From an uncultured Verrucomicrobiota bacterium (lineage in GTDB: Bacteria; Verrucomicrobiota; Verrucomicrobiia; Chthoniobacterales; JACTMZ01): DNA of 53,264 nucleotides. Location: the NCBI GenBank assembly GCA_903953565.1, contig CAJBKE010000063.1, positions 1-53,264 on the forward strand, given 5' to 3'. The notes beneath the pieces were generated by a model, which ran no database searches, was not told where the DNA came from, and was given only the letters and a program-made list of their open reading frames with translations. Below are positions 1,985-23,440 of the stretch, piece by piece; the first letter of the stretch is position 1, and the number at the start of each line of letters is the position of its first letter. Both the position numbers and the translations under genes were made by a program.

Positions 1985-2890
1985 TTACGTGGATGACTTT
2001 TCTCTGCTCTTAAGTCCGCTGAGGTATTCTTGGGTTATCGCGAGAAGCTCGCGGAGAGACATGTGGACTTTGTCAAAGTCATCAAAGACGGCTTTCCCTC
2101 GATGGCTCAGATTGCTGCGCAACTGGTAGTAGTATTTGAAACATGCTTCAGCATTTTCTGGGTCTAGCTTGATTGCTTGTTCCGGATTCCGTGAGTCGGC
2201 GACTTTTTCGCCCGTGCGAGTCACGTGCTTAAGAACCGCCTGCGGAACACCCTCCAACTCATGCAGACGCTTGATACGCTGCATCGGGTCTGCTGCGGGA
2301 CCGAAACAGAGCGCTGCCAACCTCTCAAGAACAGACCACAGGAGCAGATACGCCATTTGTGCGCGGAAGAATCTTTTCCAATCCAATCCATCGCCAGAGG
2401 GAGGCAGCCTCTCAACCTCCCGAAGCACGAGATCTATTTCGTCCAAAGCTGGTCCGAATGCTGGGTCGTCGCAGAGCCGCCACGTGTTTGAGTTCCAAAA
2501 GACAGGGTTTCCCTTTTTGGGGAACCTCGCCGCAAGAGCGTTCGCCCTAGTTCCGTCGCCTAGGGTGACCAGGTGCCACTGGTAATGCTTCCGGGGCTCA
2601 AAAAGGCAAACCCGTCCGTAACCCTCTATCTCGAATCCCTTTTTCCACACGATGAGGCAGCCGCAGACCTCGCCATCCTCCTCGGGGCGTAAGAGTGGCA
2701 GACCGTCCCTTACCCATAACTGCCCTGCGATAACCGTAGGCCGAGTAGCCTCGACGTAGTCGCGCAGTTGCTCATGAGCTGGCAAGCCTGGCTTCAGTGC
2801 TCCATAAACGAAAAGAGGCAATTCCGATTCAGACGGAAGATCGAGAGCGTTCCCCCCGGGCTCTGTGTTCTGGCTTCGAGGCAAGCTCAT
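1985..2890 (-). CDS. AIG2/GGCT-like domain fused to a HEPN-like domain
   Basis: This 301-aa protein begins with the gamma-glutamylcyclotransferase (AIG2-like) fold signature LFVYGALKPG (about residues 26-35). Its C-terminal helical region carries R-S-N-L-S-H (258-263), an R-x4-H motif typical of HEPN ribonuclease or nucleotide-binding domains. The ATG at 2890 is preferred because it overlaps the TGA of the upstream gene by 4 nt; a TTG at 2902 would add four residues. HEPN domains are common RNase effectors of defence and toxin systems, and GGCT folds act on gamma-glutamyl amines or small molecules. The fusion, the coupling to a SEC-C gene and the position after the large operon suggest an effector or accessory of that island. 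Activity is inferred, not shown. Confidence 0.6.
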   Translation of the reverse strand: MSLPRSQNTEPGGNALDLPSESELPLFVYGALKPGLPAHEQLRDYVEATRPTVIAGQLWVRDGLPLLRPEEDGEVCGCLIVWKKGFEIEGYGRVCLFEPRKHYQWHLVTLGDGTRANALAARFPKKGNPVFWNSNTWRLCDDPAFGPALDEIDLVLREVERLPPSGDGLDWKRFFRAQMAYLLLWSVLERLAALCFGPAADPMQRIKRLHELEGVPQAVLKHVTRTGEKVADSRNPEQAIKLDPENAEACFKYYYQLRSNLSHRGKAVFDDFDKVHMSLRELLAITQEYLSGLKSREKSST

Positions 2891-3972
2891 TTGCCGCAGC
2901 AAAACCTAAGTTTCTTGCCGCTTCCGCAAGGGCACGGCGCATAGGGGTCCATCAAGTTGCGGTTTCGCTTCACCATCTCTTTTGTGAAGACCTGTGCAGT
3001 TGTGAGAATCCTTGCCTCCGAGGATTCCAGGTCGGGCAAGATGCGACCTTGCAGATCGACCAGCACAAGGTTCACCACCTTGAAAATCCACTCCATAAGT
3101 TGTGGCATCTGTTCGATCACAATTGGAACGGCGGAATTGCTTAATGCCTTGTCGATCCAATAGACCCCTTGCGAGTCTTCTCTTGGTGACGCCTGAACCG
3201 TCGAGATAATGAGATTGCCAACGTTCGGATGCGTGAACTCGCAGAGAATGTTATAAATAGCGCGCGTCCCCTTTGTTGTCTTGTCGAGAAGATCGACGCC
3301 CTTCAAGCAGGAAGCGGCTCCAATATTGACCCTGTCGGGATGCTCCTCGTACGCGACTCGGTCTTTGCGGATCAACTCATCGAAGTCGTGCCCTTGTGCT
3401 AAAGCCATCCATGAGACTCGCGTGGAGTAGAGTCGTTTAGCCATGAGGTCATAAGCCTCGTTGAGGACTCTGCAACTTTCGTCAAAATTTGCAGGCTCGC
3501 TAAGTGCTCCTAGTTGCTTTGCCACAACAGCGAGATGCCCTACCTGCTCGATACAACCTCGGTAGCAGACAAGTGCTGTGTGGAAGTTTACCTCTTCAAG
3601 CGCGAGATCCGCTCCTCGTAGGAGTTGCGAGATGGCCCTCAAGGCCGCTTGGACCTGAGTCCTGACCATTGTCCCAACTCTCGCTTGGTTATAAATGTGA
3701 GCGCGAGCGACCTCGGGGGAGAGCGTGATTTGCTGGGTGACTTTGCGCGCCTGACCCATCGGCGTGTCGACGGTCTCGCGCAACATCGTTCCGTCGCGCG
3801 TAAATGCGTCAATAGCGCGATTGATTTGCTGTTGGAACACAACAGAATATTCGAAGTCTTCTGCCACGATCTCTGACAGCACTCGCTCTGCCTGGCGGAT
3901 GCTGGCAAGACAGGATTGAATTTCTAAGGAGCAGTCGCTCTCCCAAGCTTCTCTTCCGATATTGTGATTCAT
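2887..3972 (-). CDS. SEC-C motif protein, function unknown
   Basis: This 361-aa protein is mostly helical, without a signal peptide or membrane segments. The last 20 residues form a SEC-C zinc-binding motif, CPCGSGKK-(x)3-CCGK, as found at the C terminus of SecA and many small accessory proteins. The main body is unrecognised; its Asp/Glu- and Arg-rich helices and conserved-looking EFTHPNVG stretch (about residues 250) may suggest another HEPN-like helical bundle, but this is weak. It ends in a 4-nt overlap with the GGCT-HEPN gene, so the two are coupled. A 123-nt gap separates it from the upstream 1541-aa gene, leaving room for its own promoter. Confidence 0.65.
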   Translation of the reverse strand: MNHNIGREAWESDCSLEIQSCLASIRQAERVLSEIVAEDFEYSVVFQQQINRAIDAFTRDGTMLRETVDTPMGQARKVTQQITLSPEVARAHIYNQARVGTMVRTQVQAALRAISQLLRGADLALEEVNFHTALVCYRGCIEQVGHLAVVAKQLGALSEPANFDESCRVLNEAYDLMAKRLYSTRVSWMALAQGHDFDELIRKDRVAYEEHPDRVNIGAASCLKGVDLLDKTTKGTRAIYNILCEFTHPNVGNLIISTVQASPREDSQGVYWIDKALSNSAVPIVIEQMPQLMEWIFKVVNLVLVDLQGRILPDLESSEARILTTAQVFTKEMVKRNRNLMDPYAPCPCGSGKKLRFCCGK

Positions 3973-4095: not shown

Positions 4096-7000
4096 TCACT
4101 GCTGGCGTGCGATTCGGTGCCTAAGGTCGACAGACTGTCGCAGATATCGCCGCCCCTCAGGAGTCAAGCTACGCCCACCACGCACCATCACCAATCCAAG
4201 GCGCTGGAGGTATTCATCCACTTCGACAAAGTCATTGCGGTTACTGATGCCTAACCCTTGTCTAATGCGCTCCTCGGCGTTAGCTCCGTGGCGATCGAGG
4301 TAGGAGAGGAAATTGCGGGCGGTGACGTCAAGACCGTTGGCATCGATACCTTGACCGTCGAAATAAGCCGCGATGGCTTCGACAGTCATGGCTTCACCTA
4401 TCCGTTGGCGGTTGGGACTGGAGTCCGGCCCTCGCACTTCGGCGTAAAAGTGCGGGATCAGTTGGTCAATCGTCCGGACGGCAACCCTTGGTTGCGCCCG
4501 GGTTCGGGCTGCTATTTCCATGCACGCGTCTTTAGTTAACGAGTAGCCTTCGAGCTGCCGCGTCGCGTGAAGCCAGACGATACCAGCCAACTCCTCAAGC
4601 GTGTAATTCCTTAAATGAATTCGGTCGGGGCGGCTACGGAATGCCTCGGTTAGCCTTCCGGAATCCGTGGTCGCCATCAGAAAAACTACTTGAGTAAAAT
4701 CATAGTCAACATTGTCGATCGTGGTTAAGCGGGCGTCATCAAGTGCGCTCAACAGGATATTAGCGACGGTCGGCGTGAGGGCGTGAACCTCATCGATCAT
4801 TACAACACAAGGGCGGACGCGAACCGGACGGATTTGGTTGTCAGGAATTTTCCCTTCGTCTTGCAGCTTTTCGACAATCATGCGCCCTCTGCTAAGGTCG
4901 GCTCCGGAGAAGAATATCTCGCGTTCTCCGAGCAAGCGGTCGGCAATGGCGCGAGCGAAACTGCTTTTGCCTACACCGGCAGATCCAACAAACATAGTGT
5001 CCTTGAACCGCTCATGGAAATCACGAGTGTAGTGCAGGCGGTTCATAAGCTGCCGAACGGTCTCGTCCTGCCCGATCATACCAAGCTCGTTCTGTTGTGG
5101 AGGCCACGTCACGTCCGACGGGGCTGCATCCAATAGCGGCACTTCCTGAGCAGGTGACGCCAAAGATTCGGGGGCCGAAACGCTCTCAAAGGCAGCACGC
5201 AGTGGCTCCTCTTCCCGAGCAGGCTCCTGCTCGGCTTCGGGCTGCATGGCGGCGACCCTGCTTTCGGACGTCGATGAGACCGGCGTGCCAGGAGTTAGTA
5301 TCTCCGGAGATGAAACGGACCGCTCAATCAAATGCTGGACGTCGTCTTCTCCGAGCGTGCGAATGACCACCGATGTATCGGCGAACTGAGCGACTTCCGG
5401 TGCGACCGTTGCTGACTCGCCTAGCGCCACGCGGACTACCTCACCACGAACCTCGACAGGCAAAGGTTCGCCTTCTTGGCCGAAAATCCGGCTGAGCCAT
5501 CCGCACCACGTGCCACGGAGCTCGGGGGTGACTTGCTTGCCAAGGCAGGCGCGAACCAAGACTTCTTTAAGCATTTCGCAGCGCGGAACCGAAAGAGGCC
5601 CGCAATCTTCACCCGCACCGCTCAACCCATCCGAAACAGCTTCCATTGTGGCCAAGAGTTGGCCGATGGCTTGATCGAGTGTCCCACGGGCAACGTCGGC
5701 AACAGTGCCTTGAGTGCTCTTCACCTCGATAGCCTCAAGAACAAGCCCTTCGCCTTCTTGGCGTAGGGCGATTAGATCACAGCGATCCGCACGCTTGCCC
5801 AGCCTTAACCAATGGCGAGCGATCTGCTGGTCCGCTGAAACGATGAGTGAGCCGGGGTGGCGTCCGGCATAGTCGCGGGCCGCCAAGAGCGTTCCCGCCA
5901 AGCCAAGCACCTGGTTAGCGTCCACCGTGCCATCCCTCTTTATGAGATTTAGGATACCCGCCCCTGAAAGGTGAACTCCTTCCTCGAGCAAGCTACAAAG
6001 CTGGCGGGTTGTGACATCGAGGTTCCAGCGATTGAAGGCCGGGCGAACCAAATCCGCCAGTCGCCGGTAATCCCGTGCAAGCAAAAGCACTTCTCTCTGG
6101 CCCTCTCGGCGGGCAAGGAAACGGACCGACTGTAGACCAGACTCTGCTGGTAGAGCACGATCTGCAAGCCCGAGCCAGAAGGCGCCTGGCTCTTCACCTT
6201 GCAACACCACATCCACCGTGTGGCGAAGATTCTCCGCGTCCGCCCAAGCGTTCGGCGTCGAGTCGCGCTGACCCCGGTCCGCTTCATTCATCAATTGCAT
6301 GAACTCGGAGAACGGTGGCTCGTCCGTGGTGGGATCGAGCCGCACCGTGCCACGCAATTCTTGGTAGCGAATGACTTTGCGCACGCAGAAAGGGCTCATC
6401 GGCATAGGTAAGCCCATGTCACTGCGACGGATGGACACACCCGCTTCGTCAAACAGAATGAGCATGTGCTGCGGTTCTCGACGCCAGTGCGCAATCCAAT
6501 GCTCCAGCGACCGCGGCTCTTCGTGGATTTGCATCTCAAGCCGCCCCGAGGAGATTCGTTCCTCCAGAACGTCCATGGTCTCGGAAGAAAACGCTAAAGC
6601 CTGGGCAGAGCGCCCGCGAACAGCCGGAGAAGTGGTTGAGAAAAACTCTAACCGGAGAGCTGGCAGAGTCCCCTCCCGCCGCTCGCTCAAAATTTTTGCT
6701 ATCTCTACAGCAAGGTGGGGAGCATCTGGCGGGTTAAGAACGCCGACCCGCATAGGCTTGAGGTGCAAAGGGTGAGAGACGGCAAAGCGATCCATTGCGT
6801 AGCGAATTGTTTCCACGCCATCCAAGCCGGAGCAGGCGTTTTGCAGGTTCTCGAATGTCGCCAGCCCATGCAAATCGCTGGAAATCGGAAGCAGGCGCGC
6901 ACCGCCCTTGTTGGCTGGCAGGGAGCTTGCATAAAGCACGCTGAGGAATTGCTCCGGACGTCGACATTCGTCTATGACCGCCTGACGGTCTTCTGCGGAA

Positions 7001-8721
7001 AGTGTGCTTCCTAGACCGCGTAGAACCGAAGCTAGTCGCTGATAACGCCAGAGATGAAGGGGGTGCGTCGGCAAAAGCACTGCTTTCCACGACTCGCGGT
7101 CGTCTTCGAGCTCGCATTTCACCTGCATGACATCAAGTGCTAGTAACCCATGCAGGCCAATCTCGGCCCAACCTTGATCCACTCCGACCATGTTACGGAA
7201 CTGAGACTGAACTTGGCGGTAGAGACTAGTCGCCCTCGCAAGGTAACGATCCACCACAACTGCCATCTCCGGACGCCCCGCCATCCAATCCAAGGGGAAC
7301 TGGAACAATCGGTCGAGGTGGGCGATGAGGGTCGCTCGGTCTGCAATGAACTGATCCCAGTCGGCCAAGATACTGACCTGATGGCCACGTCGCGCGAGCT
7401 GGGTGTCCCAGTCAGCGAAAACTTCCCGTAGGGCCATGGTGCGTCCATCCATGACGGCGACCCTCCCAGGCTCAAGTTTGCATGTCTCACAGGCGCTGTG
7501 CTGTTTGAGCGCAATCGAAAGCGACGGCTCACGAGTGACAAGAAGTCCTCCGAAAACCTCCGAGGAACAAAAACTGTGCAGCCAATCGAGTAGAGAAGCA
7601 TCGAGATCTAATCGGATCCGCACTTCTTGACCGCGGATTTCGACGCTCGCTTCGATGCTCCGTTCATCTTTCTCCAGCGCCTCGTCGAGAGCTTTCTCAA
7701 GCTCGACGATTCGAGCGCTAAGGCTCTGCTGTCGGTCATCCAGAAGATCCTCACCCGTTGCTCCCGCAAGTTCGCGACGACCACCTGTTGTCGTCTCAGG
7801 CTCTACATCTTCTACGGGCCCATCCTCAATTTCTGATATCTCTAGCTCCGTCTCGGAATCCTTGGGAGGACGAAACACCTCCTGCGCTTCCTCAGTGGTT
7901 ACAGAGGCAAGCTCCGCGACCGTGGGATACAATCTCACACGCTCGAGCTTATCGCACACAGCCAGTAGTCGGTCACGTGTGGCCAAGTCATTTCGGAAGC
8001 GTTTGTTGAGGTTTCTCTGAACAGCACGCAGTGCGGTAGCCGCTGCGTCCTTCACTCGGGCCACGACCTTGAAATTGGCAATCAACCGTGCGCCGATCTC
8101 ACCCGGTCTGGAGAACAAACCTGGATCTGCGAAAAGCCCCAGCTGTGGCAGCGCGGACCGGGGCGCATCAAGCGTGTCCTCATCGCGAGCGGCGAACCAT
8201 GAGGCAAGAAACGAACTCACGGAGTCTAGGGACAGTAGATCGGCGATTTCCCCGGATCGGAGTGCCCGCAACAACTCCACCTGCAAGTCATTCACCGCGA
8301 GAGAGCCAGAAGTCTCGGCCCAATCCAGCAATTCATAGGTCAAGTCTTTCGACTGAGCCGACCCGAAATGGTCGAGAGTGCTGACACCGGGATGCCAACC
8401 GTGTGCCAGCGAGATGATCACCGGATGCTCGCTGCGGTGGTTGCGCCAGTCTGCTGCGACATGAAGATCATCGGTTAATCCTCTCAGCCTCCCGAGACCA
8501 CTTTCGCGGAACGCAAACTCCAAGTCGGTTGCCGACAACGGAAAGCCTGCGATAGCAATCGAGACATCGCTTGAGTTGAACTCCGCCTGCTGCGCGAGGG
8601 CGTTAAGGAACCACCCCACATCCATCAAGGGCAGGGCTTCCCGCATGAAGTCTCGCCCTCGGACACGAGGCGACGAGATCCATCGAGCAACCGCTTGAGC
8701 TACGAGCTGTTCTTTCGTCAT
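4096..8721 (-). CDS. Large PD-(D/E)XK nuclease / RuvB-like AAA+ protein of a putative defence operon
   Basis: This 1541-aa protein has three parts. The long N-terminal region (1 to about 950) is unrecognised apart from LLPTHPLHLW (549-558), an HPL motif I associate with DptH-type proteins, and a Glu-rich linker near 290-320. A nuclease-like segment follows: D982, then E999-V-K1001 after a hydrophobic strand, matching the D...ExK core of PD-(D/E)XK enzymes. The C-terminal part (about 1215-1540) resembles RuvB AAA+ ATPases: Walker A GSAGVGKSS (1246-1254), Walker B VVMIDEVH (1306-1313), a sensor ATTDSGRL, an arginine-finger-like FRSRPDRI and a winged-helix-like tail. It overlaps the 440-aa gene by 4 nt (ATGA). 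I infer a DNA-translocating restriction effector in the cytoplasm; DptH-like ancestry with a swapped motor is a hypothesis. Confidence 0.7.
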   Translation of the reverse strand: MTKEQLVAQAVARWISSPRVRGRDFMREALPLMDVGWFLNALAQQAEFNSSDVSIAIAGFPLSATDLEFAFRESGLGRLRGLTDDLHVAADWRNHRSEHPVIISLAHGWHPGVSTLDHFGSAQSKDLTYELLDWAETSGSLAVNDLQVELLRALRSGEIADLLSLDSVSSFLASWFAARDEDTLDAPRSALPQLGLFADPGLFSRPGEIGARLIANFKVVARVKDAAATALRAVQRNLNKRFRNDLATRDRLLAVCDKLERVRLYPTVAELASVTTEEAQEVFRPPKDSETELEISEIEDGPVEDVEPETTTGGRRELAGATGEDLLDDRQQSLSARIVELEKALDEALEKDERSIEASVEIRGQEVRIRLDLDASLLDWLHSFCSSEVFGGLLVTREPSLSIALKQHSACETCKLEPGRVAVMDGRTMALREVFADWDTQLARRGHQVSILADWDQFIADRATLIAHLDRLFQFPLDWMAGRPEMAVVVDRYLARATSLYRQVQSQFRNMVGVDQGWAEIGLHGLLALDVMQVKCELEDDRESWKAVLLPTHPLHLWRYQRLASVLRGLGSTLSAEDRQAVIDECRRPEQFLSVLYASSLPANKGGARLLPISSDLHGLATFENLQNACSGLDGVETIRYAMDRFAVSHPLHLKPMRVGVLNPPDAPHLAVEIAKILSERREGTLPALRLEFFSTTSPAVRGRSAQALAFSSETMDVLEERISSGRLEMQIHEEPRSLEHWIAHWRREPQHMLILFDEAGVSIRRSDMGLPMPMSPFCVRKVIRYQELRGTVRLDPTTDEPPFSEFMQLMNEADRGQRDSTPNAWADAENLRHTVDVVLQGEEPGAFWLGLADRALPAESGLQSVRFLARREGQREVLLLARDYRRLADLVRPAFNRWNLDVTTRQLCSLLEEGVHLSGAGILNLIKRDGTVDANQVLGLAGTLLAARDYAGRHPGSLIVSADQQIARHWLRLGKRADRCDLIALRQEGEGLVLEAIEVKSTQGTVADVARGTLDQAIGQLLATMEAVSDGLSGAGEDCGPLSVPRCEMLKEVLVRACLGKQVTPELRGTWCGWLSRIFGQEGEPLPVEVRGEVVRVALGESATVAPEVAQFADTSVVIRTLGEDDVQHLIERSVSSPEILTPGTPVSSTSESRVAAMQPEAEQEPAREEEPLRAAFESVSAPESLASPAQEVPLLDAAPSDVTWPPQQNELGMIGQDETVRQLMNRLHYTRDFHERFKDTMFVGSAGVGKSSFARAIADRLLGEREIFFSGADLSRGRMIVEKLQDEGKIPDNQIRPVRVRPCVVMIDEVHALTPTVANILLSALDDARLTTIDNVDYDFTQVVFLMATTDSGRLTEAFRSRPDRIHLRNYTLEELAGIVWLHATRQLEGYSLTKDACMEIAARTRAQPRVAVRTIDQLIPHFYAEVRGPDSSPNRQRIGEAMTVEAIAAYFDGQGIDANGLDVTARNFLSYLDRHGANAEERIRQGLGISNRNDFVEVDEYLQRLGLVMVRGGRSLTPEGRRYLRQSVDLRHRIARQQ

Positions 8722-10040
8722 TGATCAGAATCCGCAGTGATTTCACATAAAACCAGACCATCCGATGGCTCGAATGCCAACCCAAGCGACTTGAGGTGTT
8801 CGACGAAACGCGCTCTGTTCAGCCGCAAATCGTCGTCTTCATCGAGCCCAACTATTCCGTCTTCAGCCAACCGGCCACTGTCGTCAGGACACCCTCCGAA
8901 CGAAAGGCCCCACACCTCCCGTATGCGTGTTGCCACTTCCGAGAACATCACTGGACCTTCGGTAGAGGAAATTACGGATGCCACCAAAGCACGAATGGTG
9001 TCGGGCTGAGGCTCGTAGTGCTTTGCACGCACGGTTGAAGCCCGCGGCTGCACCAAGCCAATTCGCACGGCGAGATCCTGAAAATGTCGCTCGACGTCCT
9101 TCAAGTCGATCCGACCGGTCTGGGAATTCACATAGTCGCCAAGGGTCGCAATCACGCCTTGCTCTTGCAGACTGATGAACGACTTGTAAACAAGTTCCCG
9201 GTGCCTCGAGAAGCAATGAACGCTGCGCGACCGGCATTTCGGCGACTGGCCTCCCGTAAAATCGGCGAACAAAAGCGAATCATGATTGATCCCCGCAATC
9301 GCGGTCGAGGAACGGATCAGATACTTCAATAACCAGACTCCAAGAACCGTGACCAGCTGGCGAAGGAAAGCGTATCTGGATTCGACACGTCCGATCGTTT
9401 CGACCAGCCGCAGTATGCCAGCCGTCTGAGGGTGCATAAGATCGGCCACTTGTTGCAGACGGCTTACGTCGAAACATTCGTCGCTCCCGCCATCAAAGCC
9501 CTCCCAAGCCAACGCGGTGTCGCCGCCATCCAATACAGGCTGGAACAACTTTGTCAGGGAATCACCCGGCTCTTCAAAGCGAAGCTTCGCAAGTTCATTG
9601 ATCCGCCGTCCTTCGTCTGTAAGTGCAAACACCGAGTAGATGAAACATCCTGCAAAGCCATCCTTTCTCTTAAGATCACAAAGGAGTTCCGGCGAGGAGA
9701 TCGTGTAGTCGTTGCCAAACGCCTTGTAATCGTCGAATGCGGCATAAACGGCATCATCATTCGCCACGATAGCGTTGGCCTGGGCGCGCAAGAGGTTCAG
9801 GTGCTCCTTCGCAACCGAATCTTCAAGAAGCCCTCGGTCCGCAAGAACCTCCCGCAAACCTTCCGTGTGATATTCCCCCGTAAGCCCTTTTTTGTTCGAG
9901 ACAACGGCCAGTTTGTTGAGCAACTCGAGCCGATAGTGCTTGCCGGTCAGAGCTAGAAAATACCCGTTGGCGAGATGCACCGGCTTGATCGCATCTAGGT
10001 GATATCCGAACGCCTGGAAAGAGACTTGCCGCTTCTTCAC
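8718..10040 (-). CDS. 440-aa middle component of the putative defence operon
   Basis: I do not recognise a named domain. The protein is soluble with a mixed alpha/beta pattern. Its centre has a hydrophobic helix pair (VWLLKYLI) followed by LLFADFTGG and a basic/Ser stretch, while the last 100 residues resemble a winged-helix-like fold ending in acidic residues. It starts at GTG (10040) within a GTGA overlap with the stop of the 1248-aa gene, and its own stop overlaps the next start by 4 nt, so all three products are made in a coupled way. Size and position match DptG of DptFGH modules, which suggests a structural or adaptor subunit. That comparison rests on gene order and length, not on sequence I can align. 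Confidence 0.65.
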   Translation of the reverse strand: MKKRQVSFQAFGYHLDAIKPVHLANGYFLALTGKHYRLELLNKLAVVSNKKGLTGEYHTEGLREVLADRGLLEDSVAKEHLNLLRAQANAIVANDDAVYAAFDDYKAFGNDYTISSPELLCDLKRKDGFAGCFIYSVFALTDEGRRINELAKLRFEEPGDSLTKLFQPVLDGGDTALAWEGFDGGSDECFDVSRLQQVADLMHPQTAGILRLVETIGRVESRYAFLRQLVTVLGVWLLKYLIRSSTAIAGINHDSLLFADFTGGQSPKCRSRSVHCFSRHRELVYKSFISLQEQGVIATLGDYVNSQTGRIDLKDVERHFQDLAVRIGLVQPRASTVRAKHYEPQPDTIRALVASVISSTEGPVMFSEVATRIREVWGLSFGGCPDDSGRLAEDGIVGLDEDDDLRLNRARFVEHLKSLGLAFEPSDGLVLCEITADSDQ

Positions 10041-13000
10041 AACTTCACAACCTCCTCATAGCGGGTAAATCTGTCATCGAGCGTGACCCGCGTGGCGAAA
10101 CGGCTTTCGGCACTATAGATCAAGAACTGGCGAGAATCGTCCCCACTAGAAAGCCTGAGGAGTCTACTCATGAAGTCGTCCAGCTTGTTGAGTGCGCTGT
10201 CCGGTAAGAGGTGACGGGGGAATCCGTGCAAAAGCCTCTCTAAGGTAGAGTGCAGCTCCGCATCGATTCGCAAGCTGGCTTCACATCCATGGTGCGCGGC
10301 GCAACTCAAGGAGAAATGGTCCGGTCGGTAATCAAATGCTCCGGCCAACCTCACTGGTAAGCGTGGAAGAAGAACCTGAAATGTCGTCAGGGGAAGCGAA
10401 CGCGCGGCAACAAACGCCCGGGTCGGTTGTTCATGGTAGCGATGAGAAAACCACAAGTAGAGATCGTGGTCACTGCCAGAGAACGAGCGCGGACAATAGG
10501 CGTAGTTGATCGCCTGGAGTATACGGCCTTTGAAGATGCTGTCAGCGTTAGTAGCTTCGTGGAGAACACGACTGAAATTTCCACCACTTGCATGCAACTC
10601 AAATGCTTTCTCGCCATGCTGGTGCTCAAAGTAAAAGCGCCTTTTGAGCGCTTTGAATCGTGCTTTACTGACCTTGGGATCACTATGGGCGACTTGGATT
10701 TGCGGAACCCCGTCAAGCCATTCTTCAGCCGTCATTTCTGCCGTTCGCTCGAGACGTTCATCCCATCGCGGATGGCTTGAAGCGGCGGGATCCGCAGCCT
10801 CGAGGAGCAAAGCACCCAATCGGAAACGAAAGCCTGAGCTCGGGAGAGTCCACAAGCGTGAGGAATACCATGACCGAGGAGCACCAATGGATGCCGTGCC
10901 GTCGTTTGTCTCAGAGGGATCGCCAAATAGCATCCTAGCGAGGCATATCCAGAGTTCGCGCACCGTGCACCTGTGACCGCGATCCGCCAAACTCTGGAAC
11001 AGGGTGCCCAATCGTTCTTGCACACGCGGGTTGCCAAGCCGATTAAAGTTCCACGTGAAATCCGCATCCCCGCTAGACGCTGCGCGGTTGACGATTGCAG
11101 CATCCGAAAGCATGCGACGCAGGGCAGCGATGGAAAAAGATGCAGCTAGCGGGTTGCGCAGACTAAGATCTACCACAAGCAAATTCTGGGACGCTTCTTC
11201 GCCAGGCTTAGTATCCGCGCCGTAAGCGAGTCGCTCCCTTGTCTGCCTCGAAAGTTCGCCATGCAGTGCATCAGGAAGCACCCCGCGTGCGGCGCGCGTA
11301 AGCAAATGAAGGGGATATTCATTGGCGGCAACACAGTAAGGTTTTTGCGCGTCGAGAGCTGCCTTCCAGCGGTCAAGGATGGGAGTCACGGTGCCTCTGC
11401 GCATGACCGCAGTGGCATCGAGATCTACCATCGCGCCAGCGGCGCTCAGAGTTGGAGCGATTCGCTTAAGAAGGTGAGTCTTCCCGTCGCCGGCGTTCCC
11501 GGTGAGAATGATGCTGAAGCCCTCTTGGACCCTCTGAACTAAGAAATCCTCGATTCCTGTCGGCACATGAAGCCGATCGAGGTCCTCTTCGTTGAGGCAG
11601 TCCGAACAACTTTGTGTCCCGGCAGCGGCCAACGACTCCCAGAGCTTGGTGTCTCCTATCGTCTCGGTGGATGTTGCCAAAGGTGTAGATAGCGAGATTT
11701 CTTGGGCGACTGATTTAGACGGTCTTTCTTCCTCCTGCGTAGGGAGTCTTTGGCTCAACGCCCACGCATGGCACGAGTTCAGCGCTTCCATCAACGGCTG
11801 ATGGTCAAGTCTTCGGCACAACCACCGCTCGCGCCAGTAGGCTGAGATCCGCGCAGTTGCGTCGCGGAACTCTGCTGGACTCCTAACGAAGTCGGGAACC
11901 TTGCCACGCTCAGACCTAAGAAACTCGTCCGCGTCTGGGAAAAGTTTCACGCCATACACAATACGACGCTGGTGGTGCTGCAAAAGCACGTCCGCGTCGA
12001 AGCCTAGCTCGTCAAGCCCAGTGCGAAGCTTTCGTAGCTTTGGACTGCGCCCCTCACCGAAAACGCTGTTCACTTCGCGGTAGCCTCTCATGGCTGTCAC
12101 GACCTGCTCGACGGCTTTCACTGTATCCGCCGAGAATTGCACCGTGCCAAATCCGCCGGTTTCACCCATTGCCTCGTAGCGGATTTCCTGTTGTTCCGGC
12201 GATATGATACCGGCAGGCAGGCGGATGCGGTTGTATTGGCTTGCGCCATGGAGGTAGAGGGAGGTGGTGCCGAGGAAGACGAGGCGCGAGTCTTTGACTA
12301 CTCGCTCGTTTTTCATCATCGAGCTGATAATGGAGACGGATTGTCCATATCGTTGGGTGTAGTCGTCGGCAACCTCCGGGCTGAGCATGAGCAGCGCGGC
12401 GAGCTTGCCGCCGAGGATGTGGTTGTAAGGCCGCACGGCGCCACAGACCGTGATCTCAAGCATGGACGTGCCGGCTCGAGCATTCTTCGCGGAAAACCAT
12501 GTGGTGTTCACGGCCGTGGTCACCGCTTCCGTTGCGTAAGCCGCAGCTGCAGCGCCTGGCAAGAGAAGCTTGTTCCGTTGTTTCTGGAAGACTAGGCGTG
12601 CCTGCAACAAGCGTGCGAGTTCGGCGGCACGTTTCTTGGCGGTCAGCGCCCGGCGGGCTGCATCCATCTTCGCATCACCGAAAACCTTCTCTTCTAGAGA
12701 GAGCACATCGTCGGAAACCCCGGGCATGGCGTATTCGACATCCTCGAGCTCCTGGACGCAGAGAGGAGACTCGGAGGTCGAGAGCAACGACTGACGTTGG
12801 TCAGCGAAACCGGCAGCGCGCCGCTTCAGGCGGGCGACAATTTCTTCGGTGGGGTGGTCGGCTTCCTCCGGGCGCAGCAACTTGTCGTGAGAAACGGAGT
12901 CAAGTCCGAGCTGCACGTTGGCCTCGAGGTCGAAGAGAAGTGAGGCCAACGCCTCACGTGCCGTATCGTCTGGCAAAGCCACGAGACCGCGGACGTGAGC

Positions 13001-13783
13001 CTGCGTGGCAGAAGCGGTCCAACCTAGAGCGCGGTCACGGTCCCCAAGAGCCAGCGGGGCGTTGCTTAGTGCTGTGATGCCCATAACCGCATGGCTGGGG
13101 TGGGCGGCGTCGCGGACGAGGTAAAAGAGATTACGACCGGGTACGTTGGTGGCAGGGATGCTCCACGTGAAGCGGAAGTAGCGCCAGATGTCGGATAGGG
13201 AATGGCCAGTAAACGCATCCTTCCCACCCGGTTCGACGAGCTGCAAATACGGCTGCACGGCATCGGCGCAGAGCGCGACTCGCTCATCTCCTTGAATCTC
13301 TGAGGCGCTTAAGAGCCGCGTTCTCAACTCGCGCCCATCGGCAATCAGCTCGAGCACAGATTTTTTTTTGCTGGCCGCACTGGGTCGCTCCATACGCCCA
13401 ATGAAGTCACGGACGGACGGCAACTCGAATTGCTGCCGAATGCGCGACGAAAGCTCCTGTCGCACGGCATCCTTGTAGACGAGCGTTTCGTGCGCTGAAA
13501 CACCCCTCGCGTCCGGTGTCGCCAACTCAATGCCGAAGCCGTCCTCGACAATACGCCAGCGGAGCTTGGCAAGGTCCGTCAACAGGTAGGCGCAGGCAGT
13601 GTAGTGTTCGCGGCAACCGTTGAGGCCTGGGGCGGATTCACTCCAGCGAACCTCGTCGCGGCAGAGGGCATCGAGGCGGTCCGAGGATGCCTCCTGTTGT
13701 TGCAGCCGACGAAGTTGCCCGGCAAGCGCACGAAAGCGCTGCCCCGCAAGGCCCTCGAGACGGTGGTGGACGGCAGTAAACAT
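10037..13783 (-). CDS. DruA-like (DUF4338) domain fused to a P-loop ATPase
   Basis: Residues 1 to about 690 carry the signatures of DruA, the DUF4338 protein of Druantia anti-phage systems: NVPGRNLFYLVRD (213-225) with RDRALGW (249-255); YNHILGGKLAALL (453-465) with SPEV; LGTTSLY and SQYNR shortly after; and FGEGRSPKLRKLR from 575. After a linker comes an NTPase with Walker A GNAGDGKT (762-769), a Walker-B-like strand LLVVDLS and a helical C-terminal half, resembling DptF-type ATPases. A stand-alone DruA is normally around 400-600 aa, so the fusion is unusual. There is no signal peptide. It is the first of three 4-nt-overlapping genes and lies 46 nt after an HNH gene. Likely role: sensing or processing DNA with ATP-dependent control of the downstream nuclease (inferred). 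Confidence 0.75.
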   Translation of the reverse strand: MFTAVHHRLEGLAGQRFRALAGQLRRLQQQEASSDRLDALCRDEVRWSESAPGLNGCREHYTACAYLLTDLAKLRWRIVEDGFGIELATPDARGVSAHETLVYKDAVRQELSSRIRQQFELPSVRDFIGRMERPSAASKKKSVLELIADGRELRTRLLSASEIQGDERVALCADAVQPYLQLVEPGGKDAFTGHSLSDIWRYFRFTWSIPATNVPGRNLFYLVRDAAHPSHAVMGITALSNAPLALGDRDRALGWTASATQAHVRGLVALPDDTAREALASLLFDLEANVQLGLDSVSHDKLLRPEEADHPTEEIVARLKRRAAGFADQRQSLLSTSESPLCVQELEDVEYAMPGVSDDVLSLEEKVFGDAKMDAARRALTAKKRAAELARLLQARLVFQKQRNKLLLPGAAAAAYATEAVTTAVNTTWFSAKNARAGTSMLEITVCGAVRPYNHILGGKLAALLMLSPEVADDYTQRYGQSVSIISSMMKNERVVKDSRLVFLGTTSLYLHGASQYNRIRLPAGIISPEQQEIRYEAMGETGGFGTVQFSADTVKAVEQVVTAMRGYREVNSVFGEGRSPKLRKLRTGLDELGFDADVLLQHHQRRIVYGVKLFPDADEFLRSERGKVPDFVRSPAEFRDATARISAYWRERWLCRRLDHQPLMEALNSCHAWALSQRLPTQEEERPSKSVAQEISLSTPLATSTETIGDTKLWESLAAAGTQSCSDCLNEEDLDRLHVPTGIEDFLVQRVQEGFSIILTGNAGDGKTHLLKRIAPTLSAAGAMVDLDATAVMRRGTVTPILDRWKAALDAQKPYCVAANEYPLHLLTRAARGVLPDALHGELSRQTRERLAYGADTKPGEEASQNLLVVDLSLRNPLAASFSIAALRRMLSDAAIVNRAASSGDADFTWNFNRLGNPRVQERLGTLFQSLADRGHRCTVRELWICLARMLFGDPSETNDGTASIGAPRSWYSSRLWTLPSSGFRFRLGALLLEAADPAASSHPRWDERLERTAEMTAEEWLDGVPQIQVAHSDPKVSKARFKALKRRFYFEHQHGEKAFELHASGGNFSRVLHEATNADSIFKGRILQAINYAYCPRSFSGSDHDLYLWFSHRYHEQPTRAFVAARSLPLTTFQVLLPRLPVRLAGAFDYRPDHFSLSCAAHHGCEASLRIDAELHSTLERLLHGFPRHLLPDSALNKLDDFMSRLLRLSSGDDSRQFLIYSAESRFATRVTLDDRFTRYEEVVKL

Positions 13784-13829
13784 GGACGAACCTTAACGCT
13801 TATACAGCTTCATCGGTCTGTGAGCATTG

Positions 13830-14606
13830 CTAATTGTAAAATTGCAAACCGCCGCCGAAGCCCAAGTGCGCCAGGACTGCGACAGACATGATTTTGTCGG
13901 ACTTTGAGAGGTTGTGCTTGGCGCAAAGGAGACGAACGTTGGCTGCCGTAATACTGCTGCCGCCACGGGAGAAAGGAATGTCGTGGTCGTAGTGCAGGTT
14001 GTGGTTTGCGCCGCACTTAACGCAGCGACCTCCGTCCCGCTTCCACACCTCGCGCTTCACTTCGCTAGGAATGAGTCGGGTGATCGGAACTTCAACGCGC
14101 CCGCTGAACACAGTCTTCTCCACCGGATGCAACTCGAAGCAGAAGACCTTGCGTTTTCCATCTAAGACGTAAGCGGCGTCAACGAGCTCGAAGACACCTT
14201 TGTAGCTCCATGTTCCCGGCTGAATCTTTTCGTAGATGCGGATGAGGTGTGGCTCCTTCAACAATCCGCTTTTGTAGTCGGTGGCAGCGCGGAAAAATTT
14301 TCCGTTCTCCGTCCATTTGCCGTTCGGCGTGGTGAGCGGCTGATCGACAGCCTTCGGATCAACGCCTGCTTTCTTTGGTGCGTCGTGCCCCTCGTAGATG
14401 ATGCACCCGGTCGCCGAATCAATCTTGTCCCGATACGGAGCGCCCGGTCGGACCGACATCAGAAAGACGGAATACTTCTTCCCGATCCCGAAATTCATCC
14501 CCTTCTGGAGGTTGGCTTTCTCCTCTCGAACCAAATCGCTGTAAGAGATGATGTCGTCGGGCTTCACAGGAGGGGCAGAAGTGGTGTTATTAAAGAATTG
14601 AGACAC
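13830..14606 (-). CDS. HNH endonuclease
   Basis: This 258-aa protein ends in a clear HNH nuclease: RCVKC (C195, C198), HYDHD (H205-D209), then N-x2-LLC-x2-HN, all needed for the beta-beta-alpha metal fold. The N-terminal 170 residues form a separate beta-rich domain (YSVFLMSVRP, IYEGHD, YEKIQPGTWSYKGVFELVDA) that recalls SRA-type modified-base readers found beside HNH nucleases, but I cannot confirm this. Translation probably begins at GTG 14606. It lies 46 nt upstream of the DruA-ATPase gene on the same strand and could be a fourth operon member or an independent modification-dependent restriction enzyme. A copy of the recurrent leader element ends about 24 nt before its start. Confidence 0.8.
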   Translation of the reverse strand: MSQFFNNTTSAPPVKPDDIISYSDLVREEKANLQKGMNFGIGKKYSVFLMSVRPGAPYRDKIDSATGCIIYEGHDAPKKAGVDPKAVDQPLTTPNGKWTENGKFFRAATDYKSGLLKEPHLIRIYEKIQPGTWSYKGVFELVDAAYVLDGKRKVFCFELHPVEKTVFSGRVEVPITRLIPSEVKREVWKRDGGRCVKCGANHNLHYDHDIPFSRGGSSITAANVRLLCAKHNLSKSDKIMSVAVLAHLGFGGGLQFYN

Positions 14607-22555: not shown

Positions 22556-23440
22556 TCAATTAGACTTGGATTTTTTGCGCGGACTGATTTTGCGTTTGGG
22601 GGCGCCCGGAGCAAGAGCGAGATAGTTGTCGCTGGTGACCACTTTGCGTCCGGTCTTCTTCTCGAGCTCCTTGCGAGCGTGGCCGGCAACGGAACCACCT
22701 TGATGGGCGGCGTGTTTATTCTCGGCAAAGCCGCGGGTGTCGCGACTGCGAGCGATTTCAGTAGTCGATGCTTCGCCGAGCATGGAAAAGATGAGTTCAA
22801 GGTCGGTCATGTGGTCGCGCAAGTTCTGGCGGTCCAGTTTCTTGTGGCGTGCGTATTCGGCGGGAGTGAGGCCGAAGGCGGCTTGGGAAATTTCCGCGGT
22901 GAGGATGGCGTATTCGCGCTGTTCTTTGACCCCGCGCTTTTTCCATTCGTCGGTGAGTTCATCGCGGATAGCGATGGAGCGCATGCGTTTCTCGATCCAG
23001 TCGTCGGAGTAACCCTTGGCTTTGTAAAGGGCGCGGGTGCGTTTGGTGGCCAACTCGGGATCTTCTATTTCCTGGATGCGCTCGTAGCCGACTTTGGCCA
23101 GCCAGCGTTTGAAGGGCTCTGCTTTGGGACTGGGGATTGACTGGATGAGGCGGAAAAGGCCTTCTGTGTTCCAGCATTGAAGGCGCTGGATACCACCGGG
23201 GGTCTCAAATGGCAGAGCAAGGGGGGGGATAATTTGTCCCCCCCCTTTGAAAGCGTCGCCCAGAAAGGGGTCGCGCTTGCGCATTTTCTTAAGGTAGTCG
23301 GAGGGATTTGTTGAGTCGGTGAGCGCAGCGACGACATCGGCAATGACAAACCACCATTCGTTGTTGTGGATGGTGCGGCGGACTTGTTTGCGCTGGAACA
23401 GGGCAATGCGCGTCTCGGGTGAATCGGCTGCGGGGCTCAT
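22556..23440 (-). CDS. Bro-N domain protein (phage antirepressor / DinD-like)
   Basis: This 294-aa protein has an N-terminal Bro-N DNA-binding domain (about residues 10-110: RKQVRRTIHNNEWWFVIADVVAALTDS, LQCWNTEGLFRLIQSI). A helical C-terminal part (YERIQEIEDPELATKR, NLRDHMTDLELIFSMLGEASTTEIARSRD) recalls DNA-damage-inducible protein D. It ends in a basic tail. Such proteins bind DNA and occur both in phages and as domesticated chromosomal genes; no other phage genes are near. The coding sequence contains a G8 and a C8 run 9 nt apart (codons for GGG and IPPL near residue 69), a possible slippage site. The region upstream has palindromes and element copy d. Confidence 0.85.
   Translation of the reverse strand: MSPAADSPETRIALFQRKQVRRTIHNNEWWFVIADVVAALTDSTNPSDYLKKMRKRDPFLGDAFKGGGQIIPPLALPFETPGGIQRLQCWNTEGLFRLIQSIPSPKAEPFKRWLAKVGYERIQEIEDPELATKRTRALYKAKGYSDDWIEKRMRSIAIRDELTDEWKKRGVKEQREYAILTAEISQAAFGLTPAEYARHKKLDRQNLRDHMTDLELIFSMLGEASTTEIARSRDTRGFAENKHAAHQGGSVAGHARKELEKKTGRKVVTSDNYLALAPGAPKRKISPRKKSKSN
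23219..23247. repeat. Paired G8/C8 homopolymers inside the Bro-N gene
   Basis: Eight G (23221-23228) and eight C (23238-23245) are separated by ATAATTTGT and extended by A/T pairs, forming a hairpin with about 10-nt arms in coding sequence. Both runs are in frame here. Gain or loss of one base in either run would truncate the protein. Confidence 0.85.

Follow-up and report, generated by a model that had tools for sequence, protein, structure and literature searches.

DndFGH (also DptFGH) and SspFGH are the described systems closest to the locus considered here. Passages of a paper by Rakesh, Aravind and Krishnan give the domain order of DndH as an inactive methyltransferase, a restriction endonuclease (REase) and then a motor, and place a HerA/FtsK ATPase as the C-terminal-most domain on a constant core (PMC10853773). 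HerA/FtsK capture, DndFGH genes apart from modification genes (phosphorothioation genes are not obligatory) and N-terminal fusion of DUF4338 to DndF are all already published in the same passages, where DUF4338 is described as a GNAT acetyltransferase fold and possible co-effector (Rakesh 2024, PMC10853773). A stretch of 53,264 nucleotides from an uncultured Verrucomicrobiota bacterium (contig CAJBKE010000063.1 of GCA_903953565.1), referred to throughout as the window, encodes three adjoining genes, named here A-F, G and H. Their sequences and predicted structures suggest that they probably form a stand-alone DndFGH/SspFGH-class restriction module whose F subunit is fused to DruA and whose H carries a RuvB-like motor in place of the HerA/FtsK pump.

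Subunits of the module

The A-F protein joins DruA to an F subunit. Residues 49-685 match the PADLOC DruA profile (E 1.4e-134) over positions 50-665 of 675, so DruA is full-length, and Pfam PF14236 (DruA) agrees (E 4.8e-30). Residues 733-954 match SspF (PADLOC, E 7.4e-13), and the Walker A motif of F is kept in 10/10 aligned rows. G matches SspG (E 1.4e-7), best over residues 312-427. The PADLOC scan, which covered six window proteins, thus returned DruA and SspF on A-F and SspG on G, confirming the DruA (DUF4338) domain that the initial annotation had recognized.

The predicted structure of G points to the same class. An AlphaFold2 (AF2) model built from 7 sequences (mean predicted local distance difference test score (pLDDT) 66, predicted template modeling score (pTM) 0.72) superposes 319 of its 440 residues on 7exx, 'The structure of DndG' (Z 15.5, root-mean-square deviation 7.1), and the second-best chain reaches only Z 6.9. 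The aligner's own note puts the best Z of mostly helical models that lack a clear match at typically 14, so that more weight falls on the SspG match and on the drop to the second chain than on the Z value itself. On this model, G has the DndG fold. Sequence searches of the PDB with A-F, G and the queries A4 and A3 return nothing significant, and in two structure look-ups the absence of a family from the listing does not count as its exclusion. Gene order, the SspF and SspG matches and the fold of G together bear out the DruA-containing, DptFGH-like three-gene module of the initial annotation.

The core of H contains two recognizable regions. An AF2 model of residues 373-1135 (8 sequences, pLDDT 67, pTM 0.40) aligns to methyltransferase folds over model residues 256-487 (H 628-859), with a best Z of 10.2 (VIA-align). 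A glycine-rich loop is missing at the presumed S-adenosylmethionine (SAM) motif, assigned here to the site after the first strand of the fold, in 10/10 rows covering that site, and the methyltransferase-like domain is therefore read as inactive. McrBC chain 6hz4_M aligns to model residues 526-763 (H 898-1135) with Z 8.1 (VIA-align). A Z near 8 is weak alone, but the motif D982...E999-V-K1001 lies inside the same stretch, and its D, E and K are present in 11/11 aligned H rows, arguing for a PD-(D/E)XK region. A methyltransferase-like domain, then PD-(D/E)XK, then a motor matches the DndH order given in passages of PMC10853773.

Sequence searches place this core at some distance from curated families. 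Among 72,556 plasmid records, H residues 2-1105 are collinear with a haloarchaeal 'DNA translocase FtsK' (tblastn E 5e-50, 23% identity) whose C-terminal part is FtsK-like. Pfam, PADLOC and NCBIfam assign the H core of the window to no family, the one match, to VRR_NUC at the nuclease, being at chance level (E 0.21), and hhalign finds no significant match between H and a Rhizobium H-like protein. TIGR03237, the canonical DptH family, has 0 matches in 288 genomes of the phylum, a result made uninformative by controls that are silent too.

The RuvB-like motor and its exchange on the H core

H residues 1214-1528 match the RuvB model NF000868 with E 2.4e-22, but at 79 of 282 bits the score is far under the cut-off. 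Searched as a single sequence, the motor matches RuvB structures from 3.3e-10; ClpC and ClpB chains score almost as well, but over no more than the ATPase core. A six-row motor profile aligns to RuvB 1in4 at 8.5e-18 (profile positions 10-329 on chain positions 27-329) and covers the lid and winged helix of RuvB, whereas Clp chains match only the core. The domain combines an AAA+ core with a RuvB winged helix and scores under curated cut-offs for RuvB proper, and the RuvB motor that the initial annotation had assigned to H holds.

Features of the motor suggest that it is active and has parted from RuvA. Walker A, Walker B, sensor-1, the trans-acting Arg and the sensor-2 Arg, as assigned here with guidance from passages of PMC9477746, are kept in six full-length motors. 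The tip of the presensor-1 hairpin is 7 residues shorter in 7/7 RuvB-like motors and full in 11/11 cellular RuvB proteins; passages of PMC9477746 describe this hairpin, together with helix alpha-3, as binding RuvA domain III. The cellular proteins all come from the host's phylum, the host's own included (14 loci were tried, and three without an open reading frame (ORF) by the text rule were left out). In a quick tree, all seven RuvB-like motors fall in a single clade that excludes the 11 cellular proteins (Shimodaira-Hasegawa-like approximate likelihood-ratio test (SH-aLRT) 100). Since the ATPase residues are kept and the RuvA-docking tip is lost, the motor is likely active without using RuvA in the usual way, and the module would supply a motor of the RuvB family that can probably do without RuvA.

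Two origins from the host's own gene are ruled out. The host's housekeeping ruvB was not fused by accident, as the canonical ruvB lies on another contig (G000:C44) and the motors fall in their own clade. Recent capture from the host's RuvB is at odds with the long branches that separate the motor and cellular clades.

The module recurs elsewhere. A genome scan with two RuvB-motor proteins as the query, for which the ratio of RuvB to HerA among hits is no population estimate, found 8 loci, all in metagenome-assembled genomes (MAGs). A-F, G and H stand in the same order at 6/8 of these (L032, L034, L036-L039), with proteins 33-46% identical and labels of Bacillota, Methylococcaceae, Rhodospirillales (2), Bryobacterales and Verrucomicrobia, representing four phyla. 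The three-gene order that the initial annotation proposed to seek in other genomes is thus found, and its recurrence at this level of identity makes the cluster more than chance. Separate ORFs encode DruA and F in L037, L038 and probably also L036; near the contig end, A-F is cut short or irregular in L032, L036 and L039. At L035, an HNH ORF (6778-7746) sits between A-F and H in the place of G, with no G match at the locus. Judged by its length and coordinates, L033 is the same contig (C120) as the G145 locus L028, where an H remnant with a RuvB-like motor (L028:10792-13459), cut at its 5' side and frameshifted, lies directly behind hsdR of a type I restriction-modification (RM) system.

Motor type varies among these relatives. 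The RuvB-like motor is intact at 5/8 scan loci (L032, L034, L036, L037, L038), where it is 49-54% identical to that of the window, and is also present in the L028 remnant. L035 and L039 carry a HerA/DndH-type motor, and their cores are 43% and 44% identical to that of the window (residues 373-1135), against 38-47% for the RuvB-motor relatives. The more distant relatives L003 and L029 have an FtsK motor; in L029 (genome G282), A-F and G accompany an H of the FtsK type, the core of which is only 14-27% identical by segment. For loci that all come from MAGs, a misassembly joining the RuvB part to a DndH-like gene might be suspected. This explanation is scarcely credible and already contradicted, because the same collinear one-ORF fusion, with motors at the identity given above, occurs on five other contigs from four labelled groups; H as a product of misassembly is rejected on the same ground.

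A tree built from 11 rows of the H core (residues 1-1105) groups the RuvB-bearing L028 remnant with HerA-bearing L039 (95/95), and a single clade of RuvB-bearing H rows is rejected (approximately unbiased (AU) test, p 0.000475), although the fork that places the H of the window is left open. L028 and L039 are 66-88% identical per 40-residue block to about residue 1132, after which identity drops to 31% and 20% in the linker. Since the RuvB-bearing rows are not one clade, the motor would have changed at least twice. As judged from these comparisons, the motor is exchanged between HerA/FtsK and RuvB-like types on one H core. HerA/FtsK and RuvB are ring-shaped motors acting on double-stranded DNA (dsDNA). 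The simplest reason for the tolerated exchange may be that both motor types are ring-shaped dsDNA pumps, as passages of PMC9477746 describe for RuvB.

Neighboring genes, host genome and rival readings

The gene layout given by the initial annotation is reproduced in full (Table 1), with 4-nt overlaps between A-F and G (10037-10040) and between G and H (8718-8721) and a 46-nt gap between the HNH gene and A-F. The HNH gene keeps its position upstream of A-F and probably loses its place in the module, because no convincing match is found at the 11 relatives' loci compared (best E 0.067). It is rejected as a core part and probably lies outside the module core, possibly as a local accessory. The SEC-C-motif gene likewise has no convincing match at the 11 loci. 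It is overlapped by a gamma-glutamyl-cyclotransferase-like gene (4.4e-5) on the same strand, the pair occupying window positions 1985-3972 (-) downstream of H. A BRO-N domain protein (2.6e-12) is encoded at window positions 22556-23440 (-); the BRO-N family is often phage-linked.

Table 1. Genes and domains of the module and its immediate neighbors (window coordinates).
Feature	Position	Strand	Basis
A-F gene, 1248 aa, fusion of DruA (DUF4338) and a DndF/SspF-like P-loop protein	10037-13783	(-)	
DruA part of A-F, residues 49-685	11729..13639	(-)	PADLOC DruA match
F part of A-F, residues 733-1248, P-loop LTGNAGDGKT	10040..11587	(-)	
G, 440 aa, GTG start, DndG-like subunit, predicted DNA binder	8718-10040	(-)	
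H, 1541 aa, DndH-like nuclease-motor protein	4096-8721	(-)	
Methyltransferase-fold domain of H, about residues 628-859	6145..6840	(-)	Structural alignment of model
PD-(D/E)XK nuclease domain of H, about residues 931-1105; D982, E999, K1001	5407..5931	(-)	
RuvB-like AAA+ motor of H with C-terminal winged helix, residues 1206-1541	4099..5106	(-)	
HNH endonuclease gene, upstream	13830-14606	(-)	Pfam HNH 0.002, short of its cut-off
SEC-C-motif protein, downstream of H	2887..3972	(-)	Pfam SEC-C 0.0028, short of its cut-off

The host genome is 95.68% complete, and its only DruA matches are in the A-F gene. DruE has 0 matches in this genome, which extends to the whole host the lack of DruE reported by the initial annotation. 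No dndC-family gene is found in the host genome (dndB, dndD, dndE, sspB and sspC were not searched genome-wide), and the host's two 3'-phosphoadenosine-5'-phosphosulfate (PAPS) reductase genes are read from their translations as cysH and cysD, the latter beside a cysN-like ORF. The missing phosphorothioation genes of the initial annotation are in keeping with these results. Within the order, H is found in the window host alone among 197 genomes, 10 congeners included, and within the phylum the H core occurs in 3/387 sampled genomes, a rare and patchy distribution of the kind expected of an accessory defense gene. In the class of G145 (193 genomes), H is matched in G145 alone. Viral contigs scanned with H yield no pattern match, and with query A2 they yield 51 pattern matches, 0 of which are confirmed.

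The locus might instead be a Druantia variant, with DruA and its partners working in a Druantia-like pathway to which the FGH genes and RuvB-like motor are accessory. The full-length DruA of A-F fits this explanation, as does a DruE1 helicase gene (PADLOC E=0) that follows the RuvB-motor H in the two Rhodospirillales loci, L036 (8095-15995) and L037 (12593-18754), with a NERD-helicase gene behind DruE1 in L036. In Haloplanus L003, DruE1 and a weak match to DruD (1.4e-6) lie divergent to DruA-F-G-H, and on Leisingera and Paracoccus plasmids DruA and DruE occur with no match to G or H. However, the window host has no DruE, and a DruE relative occurs at 3/10 loci with A-F and H (L036, L037, L003), none being found in the window, L029, L032, L034, L035, L038 or L039, where several contigs end early. 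Across these loci FGH is the constant part and DruE the variable one, and a Druantia variant is improbable. On a Paracoccus versutus plasmid (L006:12001-20078), a DruE sharing 66% identity with the L037 DruE comes after DruA, with no G or H match, indicating that one DruE lineage occurs with and without FGH. Druantia and FGH genes meet repeatedly, though not in the window.

A function in recombination or mobility, with the RuvB-like motor and nuclease processing branched host or mobile-element DNA, is also a poor candidate. The motor type, a serine recombinase upstream in L037 and the patchy spread of the module favor such a role over defense. Against it stand the restriction-type parts (DndG-like, methyltransferase-like and PD-(D/E)XK) shared with DndFGH, the separate canonical ruvB of the host, and relatives that adjoin DruE, NERD and type I RM genes.

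Other loci show varied surroundings. In Methylococcaceae, the gene directly downstream of H encodes a Tox-PAAR-like domain (L034:11563-12751), and IS3-type transposase genes lie within the DruA-F ... FtsK cluster of Hymenobacter canadensis (L004:16058-17226). The Haloplanus G (L003:13598-15100) matches MAD7 of the methylation-associated defense system (MADS; 9.7e-8), a hint that MADS may hold an FGH-like part. At L052:2103-13020, on a Rhizobium anhuiense plasmid, genes for a NERD protein, a protein of 607 aa and an ATP-binding protein of 1646 aa adjoin two DNA methyltransferase genes; the motor of the ATP-binding protein shares 56% identity with the L039 motor. This locus may be a further FGH-like system that shares a captured motor of the HerA type.

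Proposed mechanism, novelty and comparison with known systems

Several points weigh against a DndFGH/SspFGH-class module with an exchanged motor. The two AF2 models are of middling quality (mean pLDDT 66-67), and helical models like that of G typically reach a best Z of 14 without a clear match. Of the checks named in the initial annotation, Foldseek gives no hit at E <= 0.001 for the G or H model, and it is structural alignment that recovers 7exx for G. In low-power comparisons against one sequence each, hhalign detects no homology of the H core profile to an annotated canonical DptH (probability 0.3) or of the G profile to the DptG that goes with it (0.1). More than one motor change depends on the truncated, frameshifted G145/L028 gene, in which 30% of columns are filled, and the H-core tree has long outgroup branches and five rows with uneven letter make-up. 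The RuvB-motor loci come from MAGs, and a single H carrier in the order leaves selection there unseen.

The restriction module would act on DNA in steps divided among its subunits. G, like DndG a DNA binder of winged helix-turn-helix (wHTH) type, and the non-catalytic methyltransferase-like part of H may contact and read DNA, while F would bind nucleotide and gate the complex. The RuvB-like domains of H would form a hexameric ring round dsDNA and translocate it, and the PD-(D/E)XK domain would nick or cut the invader. The presumed outcome is destruction of invading phage or plasmid DNA, and hence defense. Assembly of the complex and of the hexamer, translocation, cleavage and a choice between self and non-self would all belong to this scheme, as might a role for DruA.

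The novelty of the locus is narrower than the new hybrid class proposed by the initial annotation. The DUF4338-DndF fusion and stand-alone DndFGH are already covered by passages of PMC10853773, and the motor exchange is the part unreported in the papers searched. The term 'ruvb' is absent from the main text of PMC10853773, where a RuvB-motor DndH listed only in the supplements would be missed, and from the main texts of a 2026 bacteriophage exclusion (BREX) paper (PMC12839542) and a preprint on YprA helicase (PMC12458937). No literature pairing DndH with RuvB is found in a search that subscription papers largely fall outside; titles and abstract openings of papers on RuvB, SspH, DptH and phosphorothioation include none on a RuvB-motor DndH, and the passages retrieved on DruA with SspFGH contain no such module. 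What appears new is the RuvB-like motor on a DndH-type core, a combination in no paper found by the literature search.

This combination separates the requirement for a pump, a ring-shaped dsDNA motor, from the question of which pump a DndH-type nuclease carries. A published proposal holds that the choice of HerA/FtsK steers systems to segregation, conjugation or packaging, and a RuvB-like replacement makes that proposal testable. More speculatively, and on balance doubtfully, DndH-class nucleases might be a socket for ring dsDNA pumps of unrelated ATPase lineages, with a RuvB-like ring, no longer tied to RuvA once the hairpin tip was lost, aiming the nuclease at branched or recombining invader DNA. 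If true, intermediates of phage replication or recombination would be the specific target of this class of DNA restriction.

Comparison with known systems places the module nearest to DndFGH, which it resembles in three-gene order, subunit sizes, P-loop F, DndG-like G and the methyltransferase-like and PD-(D/E)XK regions of H; the N-terminal DUF4338 fusion on F is likewise published for DndF (passages of PMC10853773). The H motor is RuvB-like where that of DndH is HerA/FtsK, no phosphorothioation genes are recognized in the window host, and the H core has no detectable sequence match to one canonical DptH in a low-power comparison; the motor and, more tentatively, the unmatched core set the module apart from DndFGH proper. 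SspFGH shares the PADLOC SspF and SspG matches to A-F and G, and the FtsK-motor relatives match SspH over the motor. The module differs from SspFGH in its RuvB-like motor and in a host without PAPS reductase beyond the cysH- and cysD-like genes.

Druantia type I shares full-length DruA with the window, and DruE1 is found beside 3/10 loci with A-F and H, but DruE is lacking in the window host and the FGH genes are not Druantia genes. RuvB itself aligns end to end over the ATPase, lid and winged-helix domains, with active-site residues kept; unlike RuvB, the motor of the window is fused to a nuclease, has a presensor-1 hairpin 7 residues shorter and falls in a separate clade. As in the HerA/FtsK capture systems (Rakesh 2024), the pump appears to be swapped on a constant nuclease core, yet the captured pump here is an AAA+ motor of another ATPase lineage.

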